A stretch of DNA of 20,852 bases from the IMG/VR virus record IMGVR_UViG_3300037119_004188, positions 1 through 20,852 of that record; one strand, written 5' to 3'. The notes under the pieces are model-generated. The model made no database searches, was not told where the DNA came from, and saw only the letters and a list, made by a program, of their open reading frames with translations. Source of the DNA: a virus. The position numbers were made by a program, and so were the translations under genes. Shown here one piece after another: positions 2,343-15,589 of the stretch; the first letter of the stretch is position 1; the number at the start of each line of letters is the position of its first letter.

Positions 2343-2566
2343 GCGCCTTCTGAGGTCGCGTCGTCCGGGGTTTCGGGGGGTGGCTCGAGGCGGACGGAGA
2401 ACCAATGGCCGGGGGCGATGACGAGGGTTGTCTGGGGGCCGTTGGAGAAGATGAGGGTGTTGGTGTCGGTAACGTCGAATTCCTGGGCGGTAATGGTGAT
2501 TGATGTGTTGGCGTCGATGGTGACGGTCCAGGTTTGGGCTGTGGCGGGTGGTTTGGTTTTGGCCAT
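2339..2566 (-). CDS. Hypothetical protein, 75 aa, beta-rich
   Basis: The frame reads MAKTKPPATAQTWTVTIDAN, followed by alternating Thr/Ile strands, a GPQTTLVIAPGHW segment and an acidic Pro-rich tail. The composition is that of a small beta-sandwich-like protein; I cannot name a family. The start is chosen at 2566 because GGAG (plus 2573-2576) sits 6 nt upstream; the frame is open further upstream, but that part is a low-complexity Pro/Ser/Arg run. Third codon positions are strongly C/G, as in the other phage genes. It is on the minus strand, convergent with the 44-aa ORF, and its leader has two terminator-like hairpins. Confidence 0.65.
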   Translation of the reverse strand: MAKTKPPATAQTWTVTIDANTSITITAQEFDVTDTNTLIFSNGPQTTLVIAPGHWFSVRLEPPPETPDDATSEGA

Positions 2567-2585
2567 GGTGAGCTCCGGACGAAGA

Positions 2586-2621
2586 AAGGGATCCGAGGCG
2601 GGGGAGGTGCCTGGATCCCTT
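2586..2621 (-). terminator. Terminator-like hairpin just before the 75-aa minus gene
   Basis: AAGGGATCC (2586-2594) and AGGC (2596-2599) pair with GCCT (2609-2612) and GGATCCCTT (2613-2621), leaving one bulged G and a 9-nt loop. On the minus strand the stem ends in CCCTTTCTT and lies 10 nt before the SD of the 75-aa gene. It could be an attenuator or could limit translation. Confidence 0.5.
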
Positions 2622-2625
2622 GGGG

Positions 2626-2647
2626 AGATTGCATCAGAGATTGCATC
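2626..2647. repeat. Tandem 10-bp direct repeat, 12-bp period
   Basis: AGATTGCATC occurs at 2626-2635 and 2638-2647. It lies upstream of the 75-aa minus gene, between the two terminator-like hairpins, which is a plausible place for an operator. Confidence 0.5.
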
Positions 2648-2706
2648 GGGTAGACGGGCCGATGGGTGAACGGGGAGTTTGGGGGGTGAGTTGCGTGGGA
2701 GGCAAC

Positions 2707-2745
2707 AAAAAAGGGGACGCCTGCTTGGGATGTGGCGACCCCTTT
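2707..2745 (-). terminator. Intrinsic terminator (minus; weaker on plus)
   Basis: AAAGGGG-A-CGCC (2710-2721) pairs with GGCG-A-CCCCTTT (2734-2745), with one internal A-A mismatch and a 12-nt loop. On the minus strand the stem is followed by T6 (plus 2707-2712). On the plus strand the trailing T-run is short (TTTCT). It would stop leftward transcripts before the 75-aa gene. Confidence 0.6.
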
Positions 2746-2837
2746 CTGTGTGTGGGTAGGACCCGCAGGGTGCGGGGAGGGGAAGTATAGCGGATGTTGG
2801 AGGGGTGGGGTGTATCGCTAATGGCGGGAGGCGGGTG

Positions 2838-3089
2838 ATGGCTGGGCGCAAGGGTGGGCATCGGTGGTCGAACGTGTTGTCGATGGACAACGTCGAGTGT
2901 GTGGGCGGGGACGAGAGTGTGCTGATGCTGAAGAAGCGGGATGGGACGCCGCTGCTTCAGTTGCCGCGGTTACCGGGGGAGGGGGAGGTATCGGGGATCC
3001 GGGTGGGCGAGCACGGGATTGACGCACTGCGGGATGGGCGGTGGTACTTCCTGTCGTACCAGGCTCTGGATTGGATCGAGGCGGCGTAA
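2838..3089 (+). CDS. Hypothetical protein, 83 aa
   Basis: The protein starts MAGRKGGHRWSNVLSMDNVE and ends WYFLSYQALDWIEAA. It has a basic N-terminus, a middle with short beta-strand-like runs (SVLMLKKRDGTPLLQLP) and an aromatic C-terminus. No family is recognised. ATG 2838 is preceded by GGGAGG with 6-nt spacing, which favours it over the upstream in-frame ATG at 2805. A minus-strand frame over the same DNA is low complexity and is rejected. A weak terminator-like hairpin follows at about 3099-3125. Confidence 0.7.
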   Translation: MAGRKGGHRWSNVLSMDNVECVGGDESVLMLKKRDGTPLLQLPRLPGEGEVSGIRVGEHGIDALRDGRWYFLSYQALDWIEAA

Positions 3090-3225: not shown

Positions 3226-3387
3226 ATGAAAAAGGAAACAATTCACCCTGATTGTTTCCCTGATTTAAGGAAACAACTTGTGTCGTTGTTTCCGTGGACA
3301 GAGCGGGAACGCTGGGCGCTGGATATCGCTGGCTTGGTCAGCGGTCTTTTCAGCGATGCGTTGGCAGGCTGGCCCTGGCGGCGATGA
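3226..3387 (+). CDS. Doubtful small ORF, 53 aa
   Basis: The frame begins MKKETIHPDCFPDLRKQLVS and ends with a Trp-rich, mildly hydrophobic region (IAGLVSGLFSDALAGWPW). It has only a weak SD (GGAA, 3-nt spacing). Its 5' part coincides with the GGAAACAA/TTGTTTCC array, so the frame may be open by chance. No family is recognised. It is listed because it is the only protein-like frame in the interval. Confidence 0.3.
   Translation: MKKETIHPDCFPDLRKQLVSLFPWTERERWALDIAGLVSGLFSDALAGWPWRR
3234..3293. repeat. Four alternating GGAAACAA half-sites
   Basis: GGAAACAA occurs at 3234-3241 and 3269-3276, and its complement TTGTTTCC at 3252-3259 and 3286-3293. Gaps are 10, 9 and 9 bp, so centres are 17-18 bp apart. 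This looks like two tandem operators for a dimeric regulator, or two tandem hairpins in RNA. Confidence 0.7.
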
Positions 3388-6951: not shown

Positions 6952-7198
6952 CCCTGCCAACTGCGCCACCTGTCGCTTCTACCTCGGCACCGGCCAGACT
7001 GGGCTCTGCCTGCGCTATCCGCCGCTGCCCGAAGCGCATCCCACGCCCACCGCCCTCAACAACTTCCCGCCGGTCAGCCCGGAAATGTGGTGCGGCGAAT
7101 ACAAGGGCGGCACGGCCACGCCCACTGAATTGGAAGACCCCATCAACCCATCGGTCGAAGTCGGCACCGGCTTGTCCCGCCGCCGCGTCCATCGTTAG
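6941..7198 (+). CDS. Four-Cys protein, 85 aa, paralogue of its neighbour
   Basis: Cys8, Cys11, Cys23 and Cys51 follow the same pattern as the preceding protein: C-x2-C-R-F-Y...C-x-R-Y-P-P...F-P-P-V...W-C-G-E-Y. It lacks the basic tail. The start is GTG 6941, which overlaps the preceding gene by 11 nt and has an AGGGGAAG-type SD. The pair probably arose by tandem duplication. The Cys arrangement suggests zinc or another metal, but this is only pattern reading. It ends 24 nt from the stop of a convergent minus gene. Confidence 0.6.
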   Translation: MPPSPANCATCRFYLGTGQTGLCLRYPPLPEAHPTPTALNNFPPVSPEMWCGEYKGGTATPTELEDPINPSVEVGTGLSRRRVHR

Positions 7199-7556: not shown

Positions 7557-7976
7557 ATGGCACTTGCCCCCGCACCCATGCCGCCGCCGGGTGGCCCCGC
7601 CGGAATGGCCCCGCCCGATATGGGCGCACCGCCCGAAGACATGGGCATGGATGCAGAAGCTCCCGTCGAAGAGGAAGATCCCGGCGAAGTCGTCGCCACC
7701 ATCCTCAAGAAAGCCGATGGCTCTTTCGTGCTGGAAGGCGCTGCCGCCCCCATGGAAGCAGGTGCTCCTCCCGAGATGGGCATGGAAGGCATGGCTCCCG
7801 GCGGCGAGCCGCAGACTTTTACGCCTGACGAGACAGGCATCGGTGATCTGCTCACCGCCATTCACAACATCATCGATCCCGAGAATCCCGAAGGCCCTGC
7901 GGCCCAGGCGAATTTCGAGGAAGGTTTTGGTGGCGAGGAAGAGGAAGCCCCCGCCGAGCCGATCAAAGCCATGTAG
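7557..7976 (+). CDS. Acidic Met/Pro/Gly-rich protein, 139 aa
   Basis: The first 40 residues are Pro/Met/Gly/Ala-rich (MALAPAPMPPPGGPAGMAPP), followed by an acidic run, a short hydrophobic helix (EVVATILKKADGSFVLEG), a second Met/Gly/Pro run, a helix (TGIGDLLTAIHNIID) and an acidic C-terminus (GEEEEAPAEP). AGGAGGG lies about 8 nt before the ATG. It sits directly upstream of terS. Its composition resembles disordered scaffold-like or DNA-mimic proteins, but no family is recognised. Confidence 0.65.
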   Translation: MALAPAPMPPPGGPAGMAPPDMGAPPEDMGMDAEAPVEEEDPGEVVATILKKADGSFVLEGAAAPMEAGAPPEMGMEGMAPGGEPQTFTPDETGIGDLLTAIHNIIDPENPEGPAAQANFEEGFGGEEEEAPAEPIKAM

Positions 7977-8995: not shown

Positions 8996-9801
8996 TGGCC
9001 GATCCTGTTCCCAGGTATCCCACCGAAGACCTCAAGGAACGTCCGCCCGGACTGATCAATTCCCTGACGTTCGGCCTGCTTGGCGGCGGCGATTCGCAGA
9101 CCGCCCGCGACATCGGCGTCGTGCCGGAAAGGAAGTATCCGGGTGAAGAGGAACTGAGGCTTGGCCGTTCGGTCGACCAGTTCTACGGCGATCCCAGAGG
9201 TGGCGGCCTTGAGGCTGGCTCCAAGGCTTACTCGGTCGACATTCGCCGCGCTCCCGAGATCGTCAACGACAAGCGTTTCGACGGCGTGAACTGGGAGAAG
9301 ATCGATGAGGCCAAGGCCGACCGGCTCTATACCGCCGCCATCGCCGCCAACAAGTCACCGCTCGCAGGCCTGGGCTTTGATCCCCGGCACTTCGTCGCCA
9401 CCGCACCACAGGACGAAAAGCGCATGACGGCAGCGGGTGCCTACATGACCAAGCCCGACATGTCGTGGATTGATGAGAAGTTTCCCAGTACCTACGTCCA
9501 CGAATCGGTCCATCGCGGACTCGAGATGTTGACCAAGGCAGGTTACCTGGCAGCCACGCCGCAGGAAGCCAAGACGAGCGGCAAGATCTATGTCGCAGGC
9601 GACGGCGAGGAGATGATCGTGCGCGGCATCATGCTGCGTAATTTCGGAGACGCGGAGAAGACCGGCTACAAGCTTGGCGACGAGCAGATCGAACAGGCCC
9701 GGAAACTGTTTGAGAATCCCAAGAACATGGCTCTGATCGACAAGCTTGAGGGTATGGCCGCTCGCCTCGTGCAGGAGCGCACGCCGATGGGGCCGCGATG
9801 A
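8995..9801 (+). CDS. Putative zinc-metallopeptidase-like protein, 268 aa
   Basis: The segment STYVHESVHRGLEM contains H169-E170-S-V-H173, the HExxH zinc-binding and catalytic motif of gluzincin/metzincin-type peptidases, placed in a helix as expected. A Glu-rich segment (GDGEEMIVRG, E205/E206) about 32 residues on could give the third ligand of a gluzincin. The N-terminal 60 residues (LINSLTFGLLGGGDSQTARD) are different and may serve as a localisation domain. No signal peptide is visible. It is coupled on both sides, just before terL (ATGA overlap at 9798). A role in maturation, packaging or cell-wall attack is conceivable. HExxH also occurs by chance, so enzyme activity is an inference. Confidence 0.6.
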   Translation: MADPVPRYPTEDLKERPPGLINSLTFGLLGGGDSQTARDIGVVPERKYPGEEELRLGRSVDQFYGDPRGGGLEAGSKAYSVDIRRAPEIVNDKRFDGVNWEKIDEAKADRLYTAAIAANKSPLAGLGFDPRHFVATAPQDEKRMTAAGAYMTKPDMSWIDEKFPSTYVHESVHRGLEMLTKAGYLAATPQEAKTSGKIYVAGDGEEMIVRGIMLRNFGDAEKTGYKLGDEQIEQARKLFENPKNMALIDKLEGMAARLVQERTPMGPR

Positions 9802-11186
9802 CCCCCCATGTGATGGATGGCCTGGAGGATCCCTACAGCGTTGGCGACATCGAGAAGGAAGACGCCCGCGAGATCGGCATCGATCTGCCACGCAAGCTGG
9901 ACTTCCTGCTGGGAGCCCACCGCTACAAGGTGGCCTACGGCGGCCGGGGATCAGCCAAGTCGTGGTCGTTCGCCAATGCGCTGCTGATCCTGGGAGCGCA
10001 CCACCGCCTCCGCATCCTGTGCGCCCGAGAGATCCAGCGGTCCATCGAGCATTCGGTCTACGCGCTGCTCAGTGATCGTATCGCCGCTCTCGGCTTGAGC
10101 GGCAACTACACCGTCAACGACACTGACATCGTCGGCGGCAACGGCACGCGCTTTATCTTCACCGGCCTCGCCTCGCACACCGTCGACAGCATCAAATCTT
10201 TCGAGGCTGTTGATATCGTGTGGGTGGAAGAGGGACAGACTGTGAGCAAACGCTCGTGGGACATCCTCGTGCCCACAATCCGTGTGCCCAACTCCGAGAT
10301 CTGGGTAACTTTTAATCCTGACATGGAAGACGATGAGACGTACCAGCGTTTCGTGGTCAACCAGCGGCCCGATGCCATCGTCGTTAAGATGAATTTCTCC
10401 GACAATCCATGGTTTCCTGACGTGCTCGAGGGCGAGCGCGCGTACATGGAAAGGACCAGCCCCGAGGACTACGACAACATCTGGCTGGGCAACTGCCGCT
10501 CCATCGTAGCCGGTGCCATCTTCGCCAAGGAGATCGGGGAGATGATCAATTCGGAGCGTTACCGCTCCGTGCCCTACGATCCCCGGCTGCCTGTGCATAC
10601 CGTGTGGGATCTTGGCTACAACGATGCCATGGCCGTCATTCTGCTGCAGCTACCGGCCCCCGGCGTCTTTAACCTGATCAACTACTTTGAGGATTCGTAC
10701 CGCTCCTACGCCGAATTCGCCGCTGAGTTCGACAAGCTGCAATACCGCTGGGGCACCGACTACCTCCCGCATGACGGGAAGAACAAGAACCCCATCACCA
10801 AGACCAGCGCCTACGATGAGCTCCGCAGACTCGGCCGCCAGAAGGTCAAGGCGCTGAACAAGCCGGTCCCGGTCGAGGACACCATCCGGTCGTGCCGCAT
10901 GCTCTGGCCACGGGTCTACATCGACAACTCAGCCCGCAAGGCGGCCACCGGCTACATCGGGGCCAAGCGGCTTTTCGAGTGCCTGAAGCACTACGCCCGC
11001 AACATCACCATGACGACCGGCGAACCGGGCGAACCCAAGCACGACCAGTACAGCCATGGGGCCAGCGCCTTCCGTCTCCTTGCGGTGTTTGCCGAGCAGA
11101 TCAGGAACGAGGCCGACCGTCCGTACCGTCCGCCGCACCGCACCATCGAGAACGCCGATCCCGGCCTCGGCCCGCTGGGCATGTAG
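9798..11186 (+). CDS. terL: Terminase large subunit, 462 aa
   Basis: TerL is the packaging ATPase and headful or cos nuclease. The ATPase half has Walker A GGRGSAKS (48-55), the hydrophobic Walker B strand ending in acidic residues VDIVWVEE (138-145) and the coupling motif TFNP (171-174). The nuclease half has the RNase H-like acidic residues D271 (VWDLGYNDA), D326 (YLPHDG) and D416 (HDQYSHGASA). Length and motif order fit Terminase_3/PBSX-type large subunits. The start overlaps the previous stop. A tandem 9-bp repeat and a strong terminator follow the stop, so the packaging operon probably ends here. Confidence 0.95.
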   Translation: MTPHVMDGLEDPYSVGDIEKEDAREIGIDLPRKLDFLLGAHRYKVAYGGRGSAKSWSFANALLILGAHHRLRILCAREIQRSIEHSVYALLSDRIAALGLSGNYTVNDTDIVGGNGTRFIFTGLASHTVDSIKSFEAVDIVWVEEGQTVSKRSWDILVPTIRVPNSEIWVTFNPDMEDDETYQRFVVNQRPDAIVVKMNFSDNPWFPDVLEGERAYMERTSPEDYDNIWLGNCRSIVAGAIFAKEIGEMINSERYRSVPYDPRLPVHTVWDLGYNDAMAVILLQLPAPGVFNLINYFEDSYRSYAEFAAEFDKLQYRWGTDYLPHDGKNKNPITKTSAYDELRRLGRQKVKALNKPVPVEDTIRSCRMLWPRVYIDNSARKAATGYIGAKRLFECLKHYARNITMTTGEPGEPKHDQYSHGASAFRLLAVFAEQIRNEADRPYRPPHRTIENADPGLGPLGM

Positions 11187-11190
11187 TTCC

Positions 11191-11214
11191 GACAGTTGCG
11201 ACAGTTGCGACAGT
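11191..11214. repeat. 9-bp tandem repeat after terL
   Basis: GACAGTTGC occurs at 11191-11199 and 11200-11208, followed by GACAGT (11209-11214). It starts 5 nt after the terL stop and abuts the terminator. Confidence 0.75.
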
Positions 11215-11249
11215 GAAAAACAGGGGCTGACTGCCTGCCTGTTTTTCTC
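11215..11249 (+). terminator. Intrinsic terminator after terL
   Basis: GAAAAACAGG (11215-11224) pairs perfectly with CCTGTTTTTC (11238-11247) around a 13-nt loop, with five T in the 3' arm. The A-run in the 5' arm makes it work on both strands. It closes the terS-terL transcription unit. Confidence 0.8.
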
Positions 11250-11254
11250 ATTGG

Positions 11255-11317
11255 CTGCCAATAACTGCCATTAACTGCCAATTACTGCCTTGCTGCCAGG
11301 TTTTGCCAAGCCTGCCA
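11255..11317. repeat. Helically phased CTGCCA array
   Basis: Seven hexamers of CTGCCA, with two one-base variants (CTGCCT, TTGCCA), start at 11255, 11265, 11275, 11285, 11293, 11303 and 11312, mostly 10 bp apart, so they face the same side of the helix. The first three are followed by AT-rich spacers (ATAA, TTAA, ATTA). It resembles an iteron or a multi-site protein-binding array. Confidence 0.75.
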
Positions 11318-11698
11318 GGGCGCTCAAAACCGCTCAGAAGGTGAGCGCCATTTCGAGCGGCTATTATGCCGATCCTATGCACTGTTAAGATTCTTGCCTA
11401 GCAAGGATGAGCAATATCAATGGGTTAGCCTTGCCTAATTCGGTTTGGCGCTAACCGAATAGCGGCCTATTCGGCCACGCGGGGAAAAAGCCGGTGTTAT
11501 TGACCCCCTTAATTCCCCCCACTTTTGTCGGCTGACCAGCCCTCTGCCAGGCAGAGGACAGGTGCGGCAATAATTGGGAACTGTTATTTGCCGCACGATT
11601 CAGGGGGTATTTCTGTCAAAAACAGGCAGATTTCAGCGATTCCTGTGAAATGCGGGAATCGTTGCGGGATTTATTGATCTTTGTCAGGGTGCCCACGG

Positions 11699-11748
11699 GC
11701 GGCTAGGGCTTCCGGCCCGAAAACCCTGTCTTGCGACAGGGCCGCCGC
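11699..11748 (+). ncRNA. Three-way-junction unit 1
   Basis: Outer stem GCGGC/GCCGC (11699-11703, 11744-11748); hairpin 1 GGGC/GCCC (11706-11709, 11715-11718); linker GAAAA; hairpin 2 CCCTGTC/GACAGGG (11724-11730, 11735-11741) with loop TTGC. It shares GCGGCTAGGG and GCCCGAAAA with unit 2. Its class is unknown to me, and whether it acts as RNA or DNA is inferred. Confidence 0.5.
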
Positions 11749-11762
11749 TGTATACTTGCCGA

Positions 11763-11818
11763 GCGCGGCTAGGGACTCCAAGCCCGAAAAGCCCTTCTAA
11801 AGCGGGGGACTGCCGCGC
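11763..11818 (+). ncRNA. Three-way-junction unit 2
   Basis: Outer stem GCGCGGC/GCCGCGC (11763-11769, 11812-11818, 7 bp); hairpin 1 GGG/CCC (11772-11774, 11783-11785); linker GAAAA (11786-11790); hairpin 2 is weaker, CCC/GGG around a TTCTAAAGC-type loop. The primary motif CGGCTAGGG...GCCCGAAAA matches unit 1. Confidence 0.5.
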
Positions 11819-11841
11819 CACCTTCCGGTAGGCTGCCGATC

Positions 11842-11895
11842 GCGCGGCTAGGCTGATCCCCGAATCCCCTGTCCGCATCACAGGGCCCGCCGCGC
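11842..11895 (+). ncRNA. Three-way-junction unit 3
   Basis: Outer stem GCGCGGC/GCCGCGC (11842-11848, 11889-11895, 7 bp); hairpin 1 GG/CC after CTA; linker beginning GAA (11862-11864); hairpin 2 CCCTGT/ACAGGG (11867-11872, 11880-11885) with a 7-nt loop. The 5' motif GCGCGGCTAGG matches unit 2 exactly. Confidence 0.5.
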
Positions 11896-11912
11896 ACTCA
11901 CCCACCCCACAC

Positions 11913-11961
11913 AAAAAGACGCCGGCTACGAAAGGGTGACTAGTCCTGTTCGCGGCCGGCG
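11913..11961 (-). terminator. Minus-strand terminator-like stem
   Basis: CGCCGGC (11920-11926) pairs with GCCGGCG (11955-11961). On the minus strand the stem is followed by TCTTTTT (T5 at plus 11913-11917). The loop is long (28 nt) and contains the palindrome GACTAGTC. On the plus strand there is no T-run. Confidence 0.45.
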
Positions 11962-12056
11962 CTTCATGTTCGATCGTCCACGACCCCCTCTAAGAGCCGA
12001 GGCCCGAGGCTAATCCCTCACGGTGTGATTCGTCTATAGGGCGACCCACCAGATGT

Positions 12057-12249
12057 GCGTCGAACCGCAGGCCAATTCTACAATCCATTGAAGGGGAATA
12101 CGGTATTGGTATACCGTGCCGCCTCATAACGCACTGGCAAGCGTTTGCCGCGTCGGATGACGCCGCTTACCTCTTGAATGGAGCCCTCGGATGGATGGGG
12201 TCACCTTTTCATCTGCGTCGAACGCACCGGGCTGCGTGCCGTTCGACGC
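12057..12249 (+). promoter_or_regulatory. Leader with alternative pairing partners
   Basis: GCGTCGAAC occurs at 12057-12065 and again at 12215-12223; its exact complement GTTCGACGC is at 12241-12249. Either upstream copy can pair with the single complement, so two exclusive folds are possible in the leader of the head operon. A small hairpin CCTGTG/CACAGG (12262-12267, 12273-12278) then covers part of the SD of the 12289 gene. Confidence 0.4.
12100..12117. promoter_or_regulatory. Palindrome related to 7497-7510
   Basis: ACGGTAT (12100-12106) and ATACCGT (12111-12117) flank TGGT. It sits about 170 nt upstream of the head operon and shares GGTAT...ATACC with the palindrome at 7497-7510; an operator is possible. 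Confidence 0.45.
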
Positions 12250-12288
12250 GAGAGCGACTTGCCTGTGCCCAGCACAGGGACGCTCCAC

Positions 12289-12696
12289 ATGAAACTGACC
12301 GCCGCACAGGTCTTCGTCGCCCACCAGATCGTTCGCCAGATCGTTGAGGAAAAGCGGCCTTTGCCGCTCAAAGGCGCATACCGCCTCGGCCGCCTGCTCA
12401 CCAAGCTCCAGCCGGAATTCGAGGTCATCGCCAAGAAGCGCGACGAACTGATCACGGCCTACGACTACAAGACCAAGGTCAACGGCGGCGACGAGGAGCA
12501 ACTCAGTGTCCCGCCCGACAAGATGGGCGAGTTCCTCGCCAACTGGCGGCAGATCGCTGACGAGACGATCGAGGTCGCCGTCGAGCCGGTGCCGCTTTCC
12601 CAACTGGATACCGGAAAAGCCGAAGTGGGCCCGCTCACGGTTGGCGAACTCATCGGCCTGGGCGACCTCGTGGCCGACGATGCAAAGGCCGACTGA
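12289..12696 (+). CDS. Hypothetical protein, 135 aa
   Basis: The N-terminal half is helical (MKLTAAQVFVAHQIVRQIVE, then AYRLGRLLTKLQPEFEVIAK) and the C-terminal half is acidic with short strands (ETIEVAVEPVPLSQLD, PLTVGELIGLGDLVADD). It resembles small proteins that I recall upstream of portal genes in phages, whose function is not known to me. ATG 12289 is preceded by AGGGA at 8 nt; a longer in-frame start at 12178 would translate through two strong inverted repeats and is not preferred. Its TGA overlaps the next ATG. It opens the head operon after the gene-free interval. Confidence 0.65.
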   Translation: MKLTAAQVFVAHQIVRQIVEEKRPLPLKGAYRLGRLLTKLQPEFEVIAKKRDELITAYDYKTKVNGGDEEQLSVPPDKMGEFLANWRQIADETIEVAVEPVPLSQLDTGKAEVGPLTVGELIGLGDLVADDAKAD

Positions 12697-13082
12697 TGCT
12701 CTTGCCCCGCAACTTCGCTCGCGAATTCGTGAAAGGCCATCATGCTGGTGGCCGCGCAGCAGCCAATGGCTGGCGTGTGCGTGTCTGGGACAAGGCTGTT
12801 TTCGTACCACGCTCTACCGTTCAGAGGCCGGGAGCGGTTCGCAAGCTCCTCGAGCACATCCTCAAGCTGAAGCCCAAGCCAACGGCGGAAGACAGGCTCG
12901 TCTTCAAGAGCAGGCTGCGGGCGCAAGGCCAGCGCAACGTCAAGAACCGGATAGCCGCCGGCCATGACATGAGGCCGCCGTGGTCCCGCTGCGCGGATCG
13001 CTCGCTCAGAACGATCAAGGCTGAAGAGCGGCTGCTGAATATCGTCACCCGGTGGCAGCGCATGGGCGAGTACAGGCGCTGA
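12696..13082 (+). CDS. Hypothetical basic protein, 128 aa
   Basis: The protein is rich in Arg and Lys throughout (MLLPRNFAREFVKGHHAGGR, KLLEHILKLKPKPTAEDRLV, TIKAEERLLNIVTRWQRMGE), suggesting contact with nucleic acid or the acidic portal region. No enzyme motif or membrane segment is seen. It is coupled to both neighbours by TGATG overlaps, lying immediately before the portal gene. A long frame in another register over the same DNA (12506-12967) is Ser/Arg/Pro-rich and is a shadow. Confidence 0.6.
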   Translation: MLLPRNFAREFVKGHHAGGRAAANGWRVRVWDKAVFVPRSTVQRPGAVRKLLEHILKLKPKPTAEDRLVFKSRLRAQGQRNVKNRIAAGHDMRPPWSRCADRSLRTIKAEERLLNIVTRWQRMGEYRR

Positions 13083-15589
13083 TGGCCCACACCAAGCTTC
13101 CTCGCAACATCTCTCCCCGGCTGCGGGCCCTGATGGAGCCGCGCCTGGATCCAGACCCGCAGAAGCTGGACACGATCAGCCGGGTGATTGCCGATCTGCG
13201 CGAGGAAGCCAAGGAAGCACGCAAGGCCAGCGGCATCGAGGAAATCTGGCTGGCCTGCGAGGAAGCCTATGTCGGCATCGATGCTGCGAACCGGCACGAG
13301 TTCGGGCATAATCGATGGGCCAAGCCGATGAGCCCGGATGGGCCATTGACGCGGAACATCACGCCGCCTTCCGATGGCCGATCCAATATCTTCATCCCGA
13401 TCACGGCCCGCTATGTGGACGCGGGCACGTCGAAGCTCACAGAGATCTTGCTGCCGATGGACGACAAGGCGTTCTCCTTCTCGGAGTCGCCGCTGCCCGA
13501 TGTCATCGAACTCAAGAAATCAAACAAACAGGTTGTCAGCCCCGAGCTAGGGGTTCCCCTCACTCGTGACGCCCGCAAGGGCGAGCTACCCCCTCCGAAT
13601 CCGGTAGCAGGCCCGCAGCCTCCGTCAGTCCCTGGCGGTATGCCTGTTCCCGAGGTGCCGGCCCCGGCGGGTGGTGCCCCTATTCCCCCTGCTGGGGCCG
13701 TTGCACCTCCCGGTGCTCCACCCCCCGGCCCTGCGCCCGCTCCCGGCGCACCGCCGATGCCCGGTATGGAACCGCCCATGCCGCCCCAGGTTCCGCTCAC
13801 CGCCAAGGATCTTGCCGAGGAACAGGTCCAGATGGCGCGTGAGAAGGCCAAGAAGGCCGAGACGCGCATCTACGACTGGATGGTCGAGTCCTGCTACACG
13901 GCCGAAGCGCGCAAGGTCATCTTCGATAGCTGCCGTCTCGGTGTCGGCGTGCTCAAGGGTCCGTTCCCGATGAGCAAGCGGGACATCGTCGCCAACAAGA
14001 CCGCCAACGGCGTCGAGGTCATCATCCGCAACAAGGTGTTTCCCGGCACACGCTGGGTCGACGCTTGGAATTTCTTCCCTGATCCGGCGTGCGGGGAGAA
14101 TGTTCACGAAGGCGGCCACTGTTTCGAGCGCGACTTCTTCTCCGAATATCAGGTCCGCAAGCTGCTCGATGAACCGGGCTACATCGCAGCCGAGATCGAG
14201 GCGGTGATCGAGGAAGGTCCGGGCGGCATCAAGAGCGAGGAAATCGACAAGCCCAACAAGGTTTCAGAAGAGCAGCGCAAGAACCAGTACGAGATCTGGT
14301 ACTTCCACGGCGTCCTGTCGCGCGACGATTACTGGTGCATCTGTCACGCTGCAGGCCAGAAGACCCGCAGCGACACGCTTGCCCCCCAGGTCTTCGCCAT
14401 CATCACGATGATCAACGATCATGTGGTGAAGGCATCTTTCAACCCGCTCGACAGCGGCGATCTCTCTTACCATGCCGTGCCGTGGCGACGGCGTCCCGGC
14501 CACTGGGCAGGCATCGGCGTTGCCGAGCAAGTCAGCCCAGCGCAACGCATCACCAACGGCGCGATGCGGGCCATGCTCAACAATGCAGGCAAGAGCGCGG
14601 GCACCCAGATCGTGGTCAACCGCGATGCCATCCAGCCTGCCGATGGCCTGTGGCGCGTCACGCCAGATAAGATCTGGGAACTGCAATCCGATGCCAACCT
14701 GACGGTCGATCAGGCGTTCGGCATGTTCACCGTGCCCAACACCACCGGCCCGCTCAACGAGATCGTGCAGATCGGCATGAGGATGGCCGAGGAAAGCACG
14801 AACATCCCGCTGGTGACGCAGGGCCAGAGCGGCCCGACACAGCCCGAGACACTCGGCGGCATGCAGTTGCAAAACAACAACGCCAACCAATTGCTGCGCC
14901 AGGTTGGCAGCGCCTACGACGATTACATCACCGAGCCGCTGGTGCGGCAGTACTACGAATACCTTCTCCTGGATCCCGATGTTTCCGAGGATGAGAAGGG
15001 CGACTTCGCCATCAACGCCCACGGTTCGGCTGCGTTGGTCGAGCGCAGCATCCAGGACCAGATGCTCAATCAGATGCTGATGGTGTCGAAGGATCCGGCC
15101 TACGGCCTGTCGCCGCGTAAGACGATGAGGGAATTCCTCAAGAGCAAACGCTTCGACCCTCGCCTGCTGGAGAACAGCGAGGAGGAGCAGGCGCAGATCG
15201 ACCAGCAGCCGCCGCCTGCACCGCCGCAGCTTGAGGTCGCCAAGATCAGGCAGCAGACCGATGCCGAGCGCATCAAGCTCGAGGCGCGGCGTATCTCGGT
15301 TGAACGCGAGGATGTGCTGAGTGATCGCACGGTCGCGCTCCATGAACTGGAGCTCAAGCGCGAACTGGCGGTCATGGAATATGCCGCGATGCATCGACTG
15401 AGTATCGAGCAAGTGAAGGCCAAGCTGGCCGAGACGGCGATGAAGCTCGACGTGCAGCAGCGCATGAGCGTCGACAAGAATGGTGGGGGTGGCGGCGGCC
15501 GCGTGCGTTCGTCGCGTGTGCCGCAGATCACGTCAGCCCCGGCAGAGCCTGCGGGCACAGCGCCCAACGGCCAGGCGTTTGAAGCATGA
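13082..15589 (+). CDS. Portal protein (P22-type), 835 aa
   Basis: The portal forms the dodecameric DNA channel at one capsid vertex and docks TerL and the tail adaptor. The sequence has the long helical body typical of P22-like podovirus portals: the N-terminal helix (residues 25-60), the SNIFIPITARYVDAGTSKLTE segment, SAGTQIVVNRDAI, and the MQLQNNNANQLLRQ helix characteristic of portal clip/stem regions. Its C-terminus is a long Gln/Glu/Lys helix (barrel-like, about 690-805) followed by a Gly/Ser/Pro tail. Unusual is a Pro/Gly/Ala-rich insert at about 169-239 between helical regions. The start at 13082 overlaps the previous stop (TGATG); the in-frame ATG at 13052 is inside the previous gene. 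Confidence 0.88.
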   Translation: MAHTKLPRNISPRLRALMEPRLDPDPQKLDTISRVIADLREEAKEARKASGIEEIWLACEEAYVGIDAANRHEFGHNRWAKPMSPDGPLTRNITPPSDGRSNIFIPITARYVDAGTSKLTEILLPMDDKAFSFSESPLPDVIELKKSNKQVVSPELGVPLTRDARKGELPPPNPVAGPQPPSVPGGMPVPEVPAPAGGAPIPPAGAVAPPGAPPPGPAPAPGAPPMPGMEPPMPPQVPLTAKDLAEEQVQMAREKAKKAETRIYDWMVESCYTAEARKVIFDSCRLGVGVLKGPFPMSKRDIVANKTANGVEVIIRNKVFPGTRWVDAWNFFPDPACGENVHEGGHCFERDFFSEYQVRKLLDEPGYIAAEIEAVIEEGPGGIKSEEIDKPNKVSEEQRKNQYEIWYFHGVLSRDDYWCICHAAGQKTRSDTLAPQVFAIITMINDHVVKASFNPLDSGDLSYHAVPWRRRPGHWAGIGVAEQVSPAQRITNGAMRAMLNNAGKSAGTQIVVNRDAIQPADGLWRVTPDKIWELQSDANLTVDQAFGMFTVPNTTGPLNEIVQIGMRMAEESTNIPLVTQGQSGPTQPETLGGMQLQNNNANQLLRQVGSAYDDYITEPLVRQYYEYLLLDPDVSEDEKGDFAINAHGSAALVERSIQDQMLNQMLMVSKDPAYGLSPRKTMREFLKSKRFDPRLLENSEEEQAQIDQQPPPAPPQLEVAKIRQQTDAERIKLEARRISVEREDVLSDRTVALHELELKRELAVMEYAAMHRLSIEQVKAKLAETAMKLDVQQRMSVDKNGGGGGGRVRSSRVPQITSAPAEPAGTAPNGQAFEA

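Follow-up and report, generated by a model that had tools for sequence, protein, structure and literature searches.

The window analyzed here is a viral sequence of 20,852 nucleotides (IMG/VR record IMGVR_UViG_3300037119_004188), in which a gene-free gap follows the gene terL. The explanation favored for this gap, with somewhat more confidence than doubt, is a lineage-specific insertion that carries an orphan array of three modules of the int-alpA type, where the array probably works as a short RNA or an attenuator. The tandem array of three copies without a gene of its own is a variant occurrence of the known int-alpA module. Any specific function proposed for it from the sequence would be considerably less certain, and is better doubted than assumed.

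Extent and coding content of the gap

The terL gene, encoding the terminase large subunit (Terminase_3; Pfam PF04466, E 6e-36; PHROG 3717), occupies positions 9798-11186 of the plus strand. With the end of terL at 11186 and the ATG of the next gene at 12289, the gap spans 11187-12288 and is 1,102 nt long. An earlier note on this DNA had described a gene-free interval at 11250-12288; the absence of genes was upheld, while the extent proved slightly longer. The downstream gene (12289-12696, plus strand) encodes a lineage-specific protein of 135 amino acids and of unknown family, for which no match was found in the Pfam and PHROG searches and which is 94% identical in the closest relative, the phage L003. 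The portal gene, which directly follows terL in most relatives, is located at 13052-15589 of the plus strand.

The claim of the earlier note that the interval holds no coding-like frame was borne out, as no frame in the gap is conserved with L003. A frame of 172 amino acids opening at 12178 is not kept upstream of 12289, and it stops there in L003. A block of iteron-like repeats and CGCTCA motifs matches L003 in all three frames, which indicates conservation of the DNA. The frame-by-frame comparison otherwise yielded weak short matches, none of them full-length, and a hidden conserved protein was rejected. The gap DNA had no match in a collection of annotated phages, and its base composition is unremarkable. 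Elsewhere in the window, the GC skew climbs sharply (+0.48) at 2501-3000, beside a region of negative skew.

Comparison with related phages

Besides the same virus (L001), the only relatives found with the gap were L002 and L003, which are identical over it. The terL protein of L003 is 84% identical to that of the window. Between terL and the next gene, L003 keeps short blocks only and most of the gap is unalignable; what survives includes the direct repeats, a block of 50 nt, one three-way junction with its hairpin, and the sequence GGTATTGGTATACCGTGCC. About 80 more distant terL loci were drawn from collections of viruses, phages, and genomes. In nearly all of them, the following gene was adjacent or within 200 nt, with a handful spaced longer. 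Because there is little or no space after terL in these distant relatives, the gap is best regarded as a lineage-specific intergenic insertion of about 1 kb between terL and the portal region. A search of the approximately 80 related terL loci with R1, the covariance model introduced below, gave no match.

In a separate observation, a stretch of 31 bp that encodes WALDIAGLVSG in an open reading frame of the window (3314-3344) was found to recur in the non-coding gap of L003 (7223-7253), which suggests recombination into the gap.

Three-way junctions related to int-alpA

Three three-way junctions of the int-alpA type (Rfam RF02996) lie in tandem on the plus strand, with copy 1 at 11696-11751, copy 2 at 11762-11818, and copy 3 at 11841-11897. 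They were identified with R1, whose 32 source elements all came from phages outside this lineage. The elements came from a scan of IMG/VR with the core pattern GCGGCTAG...CCGAAAA, where about 40 of the returned loci had the same P1/P2/P3 architecture. Since 13 of 18 scanned source loci scored above the Rfam cut-off for int-alpA, R1 is a model of that family. This independent model recovered all four copies of the lineage, with 35.3 bits for copy 1 (31.1 bits unfiltered), 43.2 bits for copy 2 (the top score, E 7e-9), 31.4 bits for copy 3, and 29.7 bits for the single copy of L003, which is the orthologue of copy 3 as judged by its flanks (shared with L003 7656-7726). The next best match scored 14.4 bits, leaving a clear gap below the lineage copies.

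The Rfam model itself was the best family for copy 1 (28.6 bits, E 0.0014) and for the L003 copy (24.9 bits, E 0.0021), while copies 2 and 3 were not listed; all four copies fall below the gathering cut-off of 35.8 bits. Copy 1 folds as a three-way junction, and copy 2 has a weak P3 and a minimum-energy fold that differs from the junction. The P1 helix and the CUAG motif were present in all four copies, and the junction strand reads CGAAAA exactly in copies 1 and 2, CCGAAU in copy 3, and CGAAAC in L003. The covariation of the int-alpA family was 0.384 in alignment A3, which had been fitted to the structure and contains the copies of this lineage, compared with 0.109 +/- 0.012 after shuffling and 0.087 or less in slid controls. 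This value describes the family; the gap itself is known from two independent lineages only.

The P2 hairpin of copy 3, GGCTGATCCCC, is identical in four other phage elements and in several bacterial ones, and that of the L003 orthologue, GGGCGACGGCCC, is the same as in the phage element L088. The presence of two different P2 types, each matching other phages, amid a mostly unalignable gap suggests selection. The three related three-way-junction elements that the earlier note had pointed out were confirmed by R1 and Rfam as homologous to a known RNA family, and it is highly probable from these sequence comparisons that they are divergent relatives of int-alpA. Formal membership is withheld because the scores do not reach the curated cut-off and the copies lack the family's context features. 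The likeness to int-alpA covers the three-way junction, the CUAG...CGAAA core, the two hairpins, P1, and the neighboring phage genes, whereas the window differs in its scores below the cut-off, its three tandem copies, and the absence of both a P3-loop target and a downstream start codon.

int-alpA elements in other phages and bacteria

The other int-alpA elements examined were viral (L011-L130) and bacterial (L425-L444). Across 47 elements of other phages, some of them near-identical, the P3 loop was complementary to sequence located 8-14 nt downstream of P1, with a mean score of 15.4 against 10.3 +/- 0.35 when the partners were permuted. With 39 distinct loops, this proximal pairing scored 15.1 against 10.1 +/- 0.4. 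For the same loop, a weaker distal site, which includes the ribosome-binding region, scored 13.1 against 11.1 +/- 0.4. In 44 of the 47 elements, an open reading frame began 30-55 nt downstream, as counted from the start of P1'. When an ATG-initiated frame with a ribosome-binding site was demanded 15-75 nt downstream, 31 of 51 elements still qualified, compared with 6.7% of positions taken at random from these loci. As read directly from the sequences, a small hairpin whose loop contains the ribosome-binding site often stood ahead of the start codon. On the upstream side, a -10-like box was present 9-16 nt before P1 in 59% of elements and in 9% of control windows.

Similar relations were observed in twenty int-alpA loci from the family to which a Variovorax genome belongs, which were found with the model of Rfam and hence independently of the core pattern. 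Here the proximal pairing scored 14.6 against 11.9 +/- 0.5, the weaker distal pairing 14.1 against 12.6 +/- 0.5, and ATG or GTG starts occurred at similar distances in most loci. The genes that follow int-alpA encode HNH endonucleases, an integrase, helicases, KilA-N proteins, capsid proteins, methyltransferases, and primase-like proteins.

Because the P3-loop pairing is accompanied by a start codon 30-55 nt downstream, the comparisons argue that int-alpA is a cis-acting translational leader of mRNAs, though it is typed as an sRNA in Rfam; priority for this reading is not claimed. In L018 (4561-4670), an int-alpA element is followed by an intrinsic terminator and no nearby start, and this element is possibly a transcription-attenuator version of int-alpA. 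The C4/CI antisense RNAs of P1/P4-type phages are likewise small phage RNAs whose loops pair with ribosome-binding regions. They differ in that they have no Rfam match in the window, and the int-alpA pairing was found in cis.

Features and surroundings of the array

The features that accompany int-alpA in other phages are missing from the array. A partner for the P3 loop just 3' of P1 was not found in the lineage copies (scores of 10, 7, 10, and 9), no open reading frame starts 30-55 nt after P1' in any of the four, and the genomic context is not that of int or alpA genes, as the array sits between terL and the portal gene. In addition, neither a cis pseudoknot partner nor a pairing with an anti-Shine-Dalgarno role is conserved for the window copies. 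Two candidate pairings were rejected. The P3 stems of copies 1 and 3 contain CCCTGT, which could form 6 bp with the ribosome-binding site of the 135-aa gene, but this does not hold in L003. A pairing of 7-8 bp in L003, between its P3 loop and sequence preceding P1, is absent in the window.

Copy 2 is preceded at a distance of 11 nt by a -10-like box, TATACT (11751-11756, plus strand). This offset is the commonest among the other phage int-alpA elements. The box matches TATAAT at five of six positions, occurs before copy 2 only, and is suggestive only. Directly after the array, a strong hairpin is found at 11919-11962 of the plus strand (z -4.3 and -3.9). The L003 hairpin (7743-7782) has a stem of 11 bp and a UCUUUUG tail and is terminator-like, and the window hairpin has no clear U-run. 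With int-alpA and R1 as search models, no other tandem array came to light in complete phage contigs, nor among the candidates listed for bacterial genomes. The orphan, non-leader status of the array in this lineage is considered probable.

The main rival explanation starts from the same missing features. It regards the array as a decaying remnant, in which the modules were leaders of cargo genes such as a moron or a homing endonuclease, the genes have been lost, and the leaders are functionless. The window copies without a pseudoknot partner or start codon would be expected under such decay, phage genes for HNH endonucleases, among other single genes, often follow an int-alpA leader, and the gap shows mosaic recombination, as seen in the 31-bp stretch within the L003 gap and in the changed order of blocks. 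However, P1, the core, and a canonical P2 are intact in two diverged phages, where the neighboring non-coding sequence is mostly unalignable. Decay is judged unlikely, though it deserves to be kept in mind.

Hairpins and folding of the gap

The gap contains six perfect inverted repeats with arms of at least 8 bp (loops of 3-60 nt), compared with a mean of 1.03 and a maximum of four in 100 dinucleotide shuffles and with zero to three in coding stretches of equal length, in agreement with the hairpin density noted earlier. They include a terminator-like hairpin after terL (11215-11247, plus strand), formed by the 10-bp exact inverted repeat GAAAAACAGG/CCTGTTTTTC and flanked on each side by A and T tails. 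This hairpin is absent from the listing of a terminator consensus scan, and L003 has a similar yet different one after its terL (GAAAAACAGC/GCTGTTCTTC, 7027-7061). Two overlapping 8-bp inverted repeats at 11438-11474, whose sequence is not conserved in L003, and a 9-bp inverted repeat at 11562-11596 were also recorded by the inverted-repeat scan. At the right end of the gap, the hairpin CCTGTGCCCAGCACAGG (12262-12278, plus strand; z -3.4) holds the ribosome-binding site of the next gene and has a smaller counterpart in L003.

The RNA fold of 11320-12288 (969 nt) had a z of -4.9 against 20 shuffles, while single windows of 120 nt were mildly below coding controls (mean z of -1.2 and -0.6, respectively). 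Together with the gene-free state of the gap, the global fold speaks for one large structured RNA over the whole gap, comparable to GOLLD or ROOL, which also occupy gene-free gaps in phage genomes. However, the gap differs from these in having modules of about 57 nt, no family match, and no long conserved RNA. A terminator-like hairpin opens the gap, and L003 retains short blocks only, of which one of 18 nt stands in another order. A single RNA of this kind is hence regarded as highly improbable, and the RNA reading of the earlier note survives in its structured modules, about 200 nt of int-alpA-type units of 57 nt, but not as one large molecule. The Rfam search returned nothing at gathering score, in line with the observation of the earlier note that hallmarks of GOLLD and ROOL are lacking, and GOLLD, ROOL, or any other curated large RNA was rejected.

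DNA repeats and conserved blocks

The left part of the gap is rich in short repeats. The iteron-like array reported earlier was reproduced as 10-bp direct repeats, CTGCCAATAA, in about 3.5 copies at 11255-11289 of the plus strand (TRF score of 56). It shares an exact block of 25 nt with L003 (7179-7203), where the array is partly kept. The most conserved block, at 11312-11361, contains CGCTCA twice followed by TGAGCG/CGAGCG and is 94% identical to L003 over 50 nt; its exact core was found in no other IMG/VR lineage. The block resembles a set of four half-sites for a DNA-binding protein, and it is possibly an operator or a site of replication; as RNA it might form an H-type pseudoknot.

Further blocks are spread over the gap on the plus strand. 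The 18-nt block GCAATATCAATGGGTTAG (11411-11428) occurs in L003 at 7154-7171 in a different order, GCGGGATTTATTGATCTTTGTCAG (11664-11687), upstream of the three-way junctions, aligns with L003 7604-7627 and is conserved in both, and GGTATTGGTATACCGTGCC (12102-12120) is identical in L003 over its 19 nt. The last of these, below the threshold of a promoter scan, might be a weak promoter or operator of the downstream genes.

Scans of IMG/VR with GGTATTGGTATACCG and ATATCAATGGGTTAG gave numbers of matches within chance reach of a 15-mer. The sequence ATATCAATGGGTTAG (11411-11428 of the window; loci L271, L276, L278, L286, L289, L290, L304, and L309) was preceded by ATG in 32 of 132 matches in phage contigs and was sometimes repeated in tandem or inverted, suggesting a separate family of repeats. 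A 9-bp tandem repeat, AGTTGCGAC, in 3.3 copies at 11185-11214 overlaps the terL stop and is absent in L003.

The best conserved parts of the gap are the 10-bp repeats and the CGCTCA/TGAGCG block, as would be expected if the gap served mainly in packaging or in the control of replication and transcription, with the inverted repeats as DNA sites. In the left third of the gap, such a hub, which the earlier note had offered as its alternative, is plausible. As an account of the whole gap it leaves the int-alpA homology of 11696-11897 unexplained, the family covaries as an RNA structure, and this reading is considered quite unlikely.

Interpretation of the array

In the favored reading of an orphan array within a lineage-specific insertion, the rightward tandem array at 11696-11897 would descend from int-alpA leaders of mRNAs. 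In other phages, such leaders would often start near a promoter, with the P3 loop pairing with a site resembling a ribosome-binding site and the start codon following after 30-55 nt. The array would have lost the P3-loop target and the start codon and retained P1, the CUAG/CGAA core, and recognized P2 loop types. Its likeliest working form would be either a short RNA that stands alone or a leader of the attenuator type, with its start near copy 1 or copy 2 and its end at the hairpin at 11919-11962. Whatever binds int-alpA leaders may still recognize this RNA through the conserved junction. The hairpin after terL, the 10-bp repeats, the half-site block, and the sequence at 12102-12120 would serve the genes on either side as DNA control sites of an ordinary kind. 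An action in trans, where the array titrates a protein or ligand that controls the int-alpA leaders of co-resident prophages or phages, is very unlikely.

The int-alpA family is an sRNA in Rfam and received little mention in the literature searched. The comparisons point to a cis-acting leader that serves many unrelated phage genes, with alternative pairing of its P3 loop, and the orphan tandem array separates the role of the junction from that of the pairing loop. If the reading in trans were true, an RNA from the late region of one phage would switch the leader-controlled genes of others.
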